DNA of 64,000 nt from Opitutia bacterium (GTDB lineage Bacteria > Verrucomicrobiota > Verrucomicrobiia > Opitutales > Opitutaceae), in NCBI GenBank assembly GCA_016217545.1, contig JACRHT010000016.1, forward strand, positions 744,001 to 808,000, read 5' to 3'. The notes beneath the pieces are model-generated. The model had not been told where the DNA came from, did no database searches, and worked only from the letters and a program-made list of their open reading frames with translations. Position 1 is the stretch's first letter, and each line of letters begins with the position of its first letter. The position numbers and the translations under genes are program-made. Below are positions 19,484-22,400 of the stretch, piece by piece.

Positions 19484-22400
19484 ATGTCCGAAGCCGCCAC
19501 CGCTCCGCGCACGAAGATCACCGGCGTTTGCCCGCCGGCGCGCGCCTACGCGCTCACACGGCTCGCGACCGACGCTCCGGCGCCGACGTGGCTCGTGGTC
19601 GTCGAGGAAGCGCGCGAGCTCGACGCCTTCGCCGAGGACCTCGCGCTCTTTCACCACGCCTCGGGCAACCGCGCCGCGCTCGACGTGCTCGTGTTTCCCG
19701 AATCGCAGGCCGACAGCCGCGACATGCGCGAGGCCTTCAACGCCGCCAGCGACCGCCTCGCCGTGCTCAGCAAGCTCCGCCGCAAGCACGCCTCGTCCGC
19801 GCCCGACACGCTGCTCGTGCTGACGACGCCCGGCGCGCTGGTGCAGGCCGTGCCGCCGCCCGAGGATTTTTCGCAGCGCGAAATCACCCTGCGCAAAGGC
19901 GAGGAGCGGGCCTTTCAGGGACTGCTCGAGCTGCTGAAGCAGTTCGACTATGACAGCGAGGCGGTCTGCGAAGCACCCGGTCAATACGCCGTGCGCGGCG
20001 GCATTGTCGACGTCTACCCGATCACCGCGCACCAGCCCTACCGGCTCGATTTCTTCGGCGACACGCTCGAGGACATCCGCTCGCTCGATCCGGTGTCGCA
20101 GCGCTCCGGCGAGAGTGTGGAGCGCATCACGCTCACCGCTGCCCCGCACATCCACGCCGCCCGCGCGCAGGCCTCGCTGCTCGACTATCTCGGCGCGGCG
20201 ACGCACGCGGTGCTCGTCGAACCCAAGGCGCTCGAGGAGGCGTTCGACCTGCTCGACAACTCTCCGGCCGCAACTCGCGTCCTCGACCGCCTGGCCGCGC
20301 GCGCGGTGCGGCTCTTCGGCTTGGGCGACCTCGATCTCGCGAGCGCCCTGTTCGACGACGCAGTCGACGAGCAGACGTGGGACACCGAATCGCTGCTGCA
20401 CCACCGCTCCTTCCCCGAGGAGAACCAGCTCGCGCACGAACGCCTCGAAGCCGAGGACGTGGCGCGGCGGCGTTTTCTGGAGCAGGTGCTGGCGTGGAAG
20501 CAGCAGGGTTACGCCGTCGATTTCTTCGTCTCGAAAGAAGGCGAGGAACAGCGCACGCGCGAGCTGCTCGACGAGGATGCCGAACTGAAGAAACTGAAAC
20601 CGCGTTTCGTGCGCGGCGCGGTGAACGAGGGCTTCCGGGTGACTCTTGGTAGGTCGGAACCGCTGGGCCCGTCGGTGCGCGCGAGTCTCCGCGGCGGGCC
20701 CCGCGGTCCCGCCCTACCCCAAGCAAGCGAACAAATAGTCCGCGGCTACATCGCCGTCACCGAAACGGAGATCTTCGGTCGCAAGCGCCAGCGCCGCGTC
20801 GCGGGCAAACGCGCACTGGTCACGCCGTCGGCCGTGGATCAGCTGCTCGATTTCTCGGACCTCGTGGAGGGCGATTTCGTCGTTCACCTCCAGCACGGCG
20901 TCGCGGTCTATCGCGGGCTGACGAAGCTCGAGACGGCCGACGGCATCCGCGAGGTGATCTCGCTGGAATTCGACGACAAGGTGACGCTCCACGTGCCGCT
21001 GCAGGAGTCGCACCTGATCAGCCGCTACGTCGGCCTGGCGAAAGTGAAACCGCAGCTCGGCCGGGTCGGCTCGGGGCGTTGGGAAAAAGTCCGCGCCGCC
21101 GCCGAGCGCGCCACGCTCGATCTCGCCGCGGAGTTGCTGCAAATCCAAGCGCGCCGCGAAGCACAGCCCGGCCACGCGTTCGCCGGGGACGCCACGTGGC
21201 AGAAGGAATTCGAGGCGGCGTTTCCGTTCACCGAAACACCCGACCAGCTCAAGGCCATCGTCGAAACGAAGGCCGACATGGAGAAGACGCGACCGATGGA
21301 CCGCCTCGTGTGCGGCGACGTGGGTTTCGGCAAGACCGAGGTGGCGATCCGCGCGGCGTTCAAGGCCGTGATGGGCGGCAAGCAGGTCGCGGTGCTCGTG
21401 CCGACGACGGTCCTGGCGCAGCAGCATCTCAACACGTTCCGCGAGCGCATGGCGGGTTACCCGGTGGCGGTGGAGATGGTGTCGCGCTTCCGCTCGCGGA
21501 AGGAGCAGAACCAAATCCTCGCCGCGCTCACCCTCGGGAAAATCGACATCCTGATCGGCACCCATCGCCTCGTGCAGAGCGACGTGCAGTTCAAGGACCT
21601 CGGCCTCGTGATCATCGACGAAGAGCAGCGCTTCGGCGTGAAGCACAAGGAAGTCTTCAAGCGCTGGCGCGCGCATGTGGATATGCTCTCGATGAGCGCC
21701 ACGCCGATCCCGCGCACGCTCTACCTCGCGCTCACCGGCGCGCGCGACCTCAGCACCATCGAGACCGCACCGGTCAACCGCCTGCCGATCCAGACGATCG
21801 TGAAGAGCTACGACGAGAAGGTCGTCGTCGAGGCGATCCAGCACGAGACGCGGCGCGGCGGGCAGGTTTTCTACCTGCACAATCGCGTAATGAGCATCGA
21901 CCTCGTCGCGGCCCGCCTGCGCGAGCTGTTGCCGAAGCTCCGCATCGGCGTCGGTCACGGCAAGATGGACGAGGACGACCTCGAACACGTGATGACGGAC
22001 TTCGTCGCCGGCAACTACGACGTGCTCGTCTGCACCACGATCATCGAGAGCGGCCTCGATATCCGGAACTGCAACACGATCATCATCGAGGGCGCGGACC
22101 GCTTCGGCCTCTCCCAACTCTACCAGCTCCGCGGCCGCGTCGGTCGTTTCAAGCATCAAGCTTACGCGTATCTCCTGCTCCACCGCCACGCGCGGGTGAT
22201 GGACCTCGCGCGGCAGCGCCTCAGCGCCATTCGGCAACACAACCAGCTCGGCGCCGGCTTCCGCATCGCGATGCGCGACCTCGAACTGCGCGGCGCCGGC
22301 AACCTCCTCGGCGCGGAACAGAGCGGCCACATCGTCGGCGTGGGCTTCGAACTGTATTGCCAGCTGCTCAAGCAGAGCGTCGCGCGCCTGAAGGGCGAAA

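Follow-up and report, generated by a model that had tools for sequence, protein, structure and literature searches.

The mfd gene of this genome (G000) carries a 71-bp hairpin element that lies open in the reading frame. Its sequence identifies it as a REPIN, in which two REP hairpins with GTAG tags face each other head to head. It is very probably a class A REPIN, moved by a RAYT, that was inserted in mfd or lost in the sister species and that has been kept in a tolerant loop of the protein.

A GTAG-tagged hairpin doublet within mfd

The element occupies positions 20648-20718 of the window, the whole 64-kb stretch of DNA that was analysed. It begins GGTAGG and terminates CCTACC, its 27-base arms agree at 23/27 positions, and it is the sole 71-base stretch in the window with ends reaching that level. 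Folded as a single strand, it has a z-score of -3.34 as DNA and -3.80 as RNA, with 1/200 shuffles as good in each fold. Arm comparison and folding against shuffles thus bear out the near-palindrome recorded in the first-pass annotation. GTAG stands directly before the palindrome at both ends (G-GTAG), and each half of the element is one REP, consisting of GTAG followed by an imperfect hairpin that contains an A:G mismatch. The features are:

19484-22918, plus strand: mfd (transcription-repair coupling factor), 1144 aa, the host gene, open across the insert
20648-20718, plus strand: REP doublet (REPIN), class A, 71 bp, coding for residues 389-412; identified by its arms, its folding, its genome copies and the empty site in G007
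20648-20674, plus strand: left REP, GTAG head and imperfect hairpin, a degenerate copy of GGTAGGGCGGGACCGCTGGGCCCGCCG
20675-20691, plus strand: 17-nt spacer separating both REPs
20692-20718, minus strand: right REP, inverted, GGTAGGGCGGGACCGCGGGGCCCGCCG
3380-3406, plus strand: single class D REP, GGTAGGGGCGGTTGCCCTCAACCGCCC, directly 3' of the stop of a PfkB-family kinase gene (2280-3377)

The last of these is the related hairpin previously noted near 3381-3405, behind a gene taken for kdgK, which proves to be a single REP of a different class.

The 1144-aa ORF scores as mfd (TIGR00580, 934 bits with a cut-off of 800) and the insert translates to 24 residues, GRSEPLGPSVRASLRGGPRGPALP (389-412), in agreement with the earlier description of an in-frame element adding about 24 residues to a housekeeping gene. 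The open frame suggests that the insert is translated into Mfd. Because the element lies mid-gene and its frame is open, a terminator or regulatory hairpin of mfd was rejected.

Pfam places the RID domain at residues 461-516, so that the insert precedes it. Residues 231-520 were modelled with AlphaFold2 from 26 sequences (mean pLDDT 75, pTM 0.50). The insert forms a loop of low confidence (block means 44-54) with strands at 383-388 and 422-426 on either side, suggesting that it occupies a tolerant loop between two strands, ahead of RID. In an alignment with 6ac6, the one solved Mfd viewed, residues 222-419 are unaligned and the match runs from 420 on; the best-matching stretch of E. coli Mfd (2eyq) begins at 418. 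The first-pass annotation had assigned the insert to a loop of domain 3. Its position before RID fits this assignment under the usual numbering of Mfd domains.

Alignment of Mfd from relatives confirms the insertion. An Mfd query was found in 57/57 genomes, as weak fragments only in the order-level genomes G041, G042, G048 and G050. The closest congener, G007 (96% Mfd identity), is without the insert, reading VTARNAAAKGYIAV where the window has VTL-GRSEP...ALPQASEQIVRGYIAV, and groups with G000 at bootstrap 95 in a tree from which the loops were left out. Among the congener loops compared, a REP at this position (loop 389) is also absent in G008, G003, G009 and G011, and the GC-rich stretch found in G010 has no REP head; the contig of G002 stops before the loop, and this genome was excluded from the comparison. 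The residues are therefore not common to all relatives. This presence/absence polymorphism would reflect either insertion in the G000 lineage or DIFFERENTIAL loss in the sister species. Comparison of the window with congeners gave no exact target site or target duplication, because the loop sequence outside the doublet differs too much between species for the target to be defined. The empty-looking loop 389 of G008 contains GGGACCGCCGGGCC, which is near the core of the class A REP and is possibly the scar of a lost insert, or chance.

A dispersed repeat family and its RAYT genes

The element belongs by sequence to a large family. BLAST returns 71 matches to it in its own genome (both strands counted), and the pattern GGTAGGGNN{30,60}CCTACC occurs 53 times forward and 55 times in reverse, compared with 2 and 1 for the reversed control. 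The GGTAGG...CCTACC search that had been suggested earlier thus yields dozens of copies. The GTAG head is also present in element copies that BLAST recovered without that pattern. A chance palindrome is ruled out by this genome-wide excess over control, together with the arm match and the folding z-scores.

A slightly shorter-spaced pattern, which does not capture doublets above about 72 bp such as those in G012 mfd, was applied to the 13 genomes of the genus. Forward and control counts are 33 and 6 in G000, 51 and 15 in G005, 37 and 15 in G004, 35 and 4 in G006, 8 and 4 in G008, and 5 and 2 in G001. The doublet pattern is not above its own control in 7/13 genus genomes (G002, G003, G007 and G009-G012), where the counts are uninformative. 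We compared 22 distinct class A units, taken from G000, G004 and G006 and from a single contig of G001. Stem pairs 8-24, 9-23 and 10-22 covary in this set, both partners changing, with a few cells unpaired.

Several REP classes share the head. The names A-E are labels of convenience, and further classes exist:

Class A: ..GGGACCGCTGGGCCC.., shared head
Class B: ..GCGAGTCGTCCCGACGAGCC.. and variants, shared head
Class C: TGTAGGGCGGGGTCTCCCGACCCCGCC, shared head
Class D: GGTAGGGGCGGTTGCCCTCAACCGCCC, shared head; class D doublets also occur elsewhere in the G000 genome
Class E: ..GCGGCGAGTCC.. or ..GCGCGGACTCC.., shared head

The G000 genome has ten Y1_Tnp matches. At contig C6 a pair of inverted class A REPs brackets a small RAYT ORF of 160 aa, the whole forming a 509-bp unit. 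C16 has a second small RAYT ORF, in a 520-bp unit with class B REPs on both sides, REPs that the stem threshold of our RAYT-flank script overlooked. Among the remaining eight loci, that on C11 lies amid REPs of a TGTAGGAGCC class and that at C12:1059652 has one REP upstream; a bracketing GTAG pair was not clearly found at six of the ten. Around the C11 gene (RAYT at 139574) there are several TGTAGGAGCCTGC...GCAGGCGACC repeats in both orientations.

In all, 27 RAYT loci of the genus were inspected, three from G000 and 24 from congeners. At 5/24 congener loci both sides carry GTAG-headed REPs that belong to a single class or to a pair of related variants (G004:C35, G006:C8, G004:C38, G005:C355 and one G007 locus, the last with class C). 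The RAYT at G002:C176 has a GTGG-headed pair and that at G005:C99 has class A on one side; at the other congener loci the REPs are one-sided or unmatched, or none was detected. RAYTs recognise the GTAG tag and hairpin, according to PMC8266576. Because class A REPs flank the gene at G000:C6, we infer that this one of the ten Y1_Tnp matches is the acting RAYT, a tyrosine transposase, and hence the probable mover of the mfd element.

In G007 there are 4 doublet matches (own control 11) as against 33 in G000, and the best match to the class A RAYT is just 44% identical. Its MeaB is without a REP at a loop where G000 and G004 have one in common. This species may have lost its class A REPINs.

In-frame copies and different classes at the same loops

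The mfd insert recurs in kind in other genes. Across three genomes, 25/122 distinct doublets lie in frame inside one ORF and 97 do not, some of these 97 being cases that the script could not resolve; the doublets are predominantly extragenic. They come from fetched loci (57 in G000, 27 in G006 and 38 in G004), sets that are smaller than the whole genomes, and one contig-edge doublet was left out of scoring. Doublets that are in frame, open and with coding sequence on both sides number 8 in G000, 6 in G006 and 10 in G004, together with one in G000 mnmA that was recognised later; two G006 mfd doublets were included because they were already known, their locus having been chosen for mfd. With 9/57 distinct doublets of its own genome in frame inside genes, the mfd element is not the single intragenic copy.

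Most of the 25 in-frame doublets have Pfam support; one ORF (L248) has no Pfam hit. The hosts by Pfam are Mfd, TatD, an RND efflux protein, a MeaB-type GTPase, an FMN dehydrogenase, a DUF3418/HrpA-like helicase, an FAD oxidase, MnmA, PurL, a DUF255 protein, a SpoU methylase, UvrA, NuoG and an adenine deaminase. The REP head is read as GGT AGG in 21/25, as GTA GGG in 4/25 and as a TAG stop in 0/25, the last being a consequence of how in-frame doublets were called; insertions shared through ancestry are among those counted, and the counts are not independent. Judged by eye, GGT AGG, the common reading, gives a peptide with abundant Gly, Pro, Ala and Arg.

A further 16 doublets are flanked left and right by coding sequence of the same strand, in differing frames. 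All 14/14 for which both sides were scanned lie between two different genes or between complete adjacent paralogues; among these 14 of the 16 (all but L269 and L286) no gene is split by an out-of-frame doublet.

Eight G000 loops were compared across congeners. At Mfd loop 389, filled in 6/12 genus genomes with the loop covered, class A is found in G000, class B in G001, G005, G006 and G012, and a mixed doublet in G004. The other loops hold the following:

TatD loop: class A in G000 and G005; class E in G001; a GTGGCGCAGG palindrome in G006
HrpA-like loop near 140: class B in several genomes; degenerate class A in G007; class A with degenerate class E in G004; class B with degenerate class E in G001
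HrpA-like loop near 502: class D in G000 and G008; class B in G006; class A in G004
MeaB loop: class A in G000 and G004; a TGTAGGAGCGGC class in G006
MnmA loop: class A in G000; class C in G006
FAD oxidase loop: class A in G000 and G004; an unassigned insert in G005
FMN dehydrogenase loop: class B only, in variants

Two or more REP classes thus occur at 6/8 loops (Mfd, HrpA-like twice, TatD, MeaB and MnmA), and all 8/8 compared loops are without a REP in at least one congener. In MeaB and the FAD oxidase the spacer sequence is common to G000 and G004, and therefore some inserts are shared by descent or transfer, and the empty state in other genomes may be due to loss. The RND loop holds the same REP class in its G004 copy.

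Beyond the genus, a pattern scan found Mfd loop 389 filled in 1/20 loci from other genera (class C in G027); eleven loci, two of them from the genus, were also checked by eye. Four of the 80 loci from a contig scan were inspected (L148, L149, L150 and L154) and one is filled: L148, from an uncultured Opitutae MAG, has an insert that is class B-like, as judged from its translation only. L148 and L149, from Opitutae/Opitutia MAGs, show about 70% identity. Class B also fills a second Mfd loop, around residue 262, in G004, G006 and G012, and G029, which belongs to another genus, has class E there; in the AlphaFold2 model this second loop connects two helices. A third Mfd loop, near 993, has degenerate REP-like sequence in other genera (L063, L059 and L069).

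Three further observations concern these proteins. The G004 match to tatD has one in-frame TGA stop, which could be a frameshift, an error or decay. Only in G004 and G006 does the MeaB-like protein have another insert, near 274, in which a motif (GAGSAGSRVGGAESAGLRVGG and similar) is repeated. The longer insert in the G005 FAD oxidase, in the loop near 503, has the ends GGCAGGGCCGG...CGGCCCTAC and could represent one more REP class there, in degenerate form.

Probable origin of the inserts and relation to known repeats

The inserts are most likely mobile and nearly neutral, with selection filtering them to tolerant loops. A RAYT would cut the single-stranded REP at its tag and copy or move the doublet. 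The REPIN itself would be non-autonomous, and would have been inserted in mfd, or retained here and lost in the sister species. Genic insertions would persist only where the frame is kept and the loop is tolerant. The mfd insert would have survived because its length with flanks keeps the frame and its reading avoids the TAG of the GTAG head, and because its peptide is Gly/Pro/Ala/Arg-rich and located in a tolerant loop.

That the insert is retained for a function in Mfd or HrpA, such as motor regulation or partner binding, and is selected as part of the protein could be argued from its occurrence in conserved and repair proteins, repeatedly at the same loops. However, the class and sequence of the peptide shift among related species and it is absent in the closest one, its low-confidence model is as for a floppy loop, and inserts are also present in unrelated enzymes; we regard selection for function as very unlikely. 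Still harder to credit is that the hairpin is skipped by ribosomes, as a bypass element, or excised from the mRNA. A stable RNA hairpin within a coding region is what such a process would offer, yet the 25 intragenic doublets are in frame and stop-free, which would be needless if they were skipped (and is partly an artefact of calling), and none of the 14 checked of the 16 shifted doublets splits a gene. In mfd, too, the insert is open and in frame, with neither the frame break nor the stops that would mark a bypassed segment.

The first-pass annotation was reminded of the Rickettsia palindromic elements (RPEs). The likeness in outcome holds, since both are dispersed palindromes read in frame within conserved proteins (here as open frames with Pfam hits). 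The identity does not: RPEs are tagged CGTC and apparently lack a dedicated transposase, as reported in PMC3733652, and they come from another phylum, whereas the elements here have a GTAG tag, an internal organisation of two REP hairpins and matching RAYT genes. We therefore rejected membership of the RPE kind on the tag and the transposase features, and consider it highly improbable.

As to how different classes come to occupy one loop, we tentatively suggest that a few fixed loops could act as landing pads, later classes inserting beside or replacing the resident REPIN through RAYT targeting or exchange of heads. The insert in Mfd or HrpA would then revolve, its class tracking the active RAYT family. 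A filled loop, being longer, might tolerate more insertions, and resident REPs might attract new ones; both are conjectures. Class turnover could instead be an exchange of REPINs by gene conversion through their common GGTAGGG...CCCTACC ends, not repeated insertion, and class A in the window and class B in G006, G001 and G012 do begin at the same codon of mfd. Such exchange is, in our judgement, rather unlikely. The class D and class A inserts in the HrpA-like loop near 502 begin in different frames, the G004 and G005 mfd inserts begin two codons further on, and one HrpA-like loop in G004 and G001 has a pair of adjacent REPINs that differ from each other and are partly degenerate.

REP doublets have been described as a mobile unit (PMC3116915). 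The repeats here resemble these REPINs or GTAG REP dimers, as presented in PMC3116915 and PMC3733652, in their GTAG tag (PMC3733652), their inverted hairpin pairs and many copies, their several classes per genome and their RAYT genes flanked by the same class; the published ones are mostly extragenic, whereas here 25/122 are in frame inside genes. They share the Y1_Tnp transposase superfamily with IS200/IS605 transposons and their small derivatives, to which RAYTs are linked (PMC3733652), and differ from these in that the doublets carry no gene.

In-frame GTAG REPs, including in this bacterial group, are already known. A 2013 survey (PMC3733652) reports that intragenic GTAG REPs are most numerous in Opitutus terrae (Verrucomicrobia). 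The inserts measure 20-30 aa; their hosts include DNA-repair genes, among them both uvrA genes and a ligase, and also RNA helicases. Those inserts are like ours in phylum (and, we infer, family), in size and in repair and helicase hosts; what differs is the presence here of different classes at the same loop, at 6/8 loops. The survey also describes same-site REPs in recB of two Xanthomonas species and others of that category at different sites. Neither mfd nor TRCF appears in its main text, and its Additional file 3, the list of intragenic REPs, may include mfd. A literature search for mfd combined with REP terms found no paper, and PMC8049555, as far as its available text goes, adds nothing on intragenic copies. 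Turnover of REP classes at fixed loops goes beyond the published accounts that we read.

The Mfd loop provides natural replicates, with several unrelated inserts of about 20-30 aa at one position and a sister species without any. It opens the question of how a conserved repair machine tolerates a transposon-derived peptide, and makes the workings of the frame and peptide filter, and any targeting of resident REPs by RAYTs, addressable. In this bacterial family, 'extragenic' REPs can steadily supply new protein segments.

The window contains one further inverted repeat, at 43240-43376 near a gene boundary. Its arms (AACCACGAAACACTCTAAACACACGAAA and its partner) are 28 nt long and separated by 81 nt, and it looks like another dispersed AT-rich repeat.
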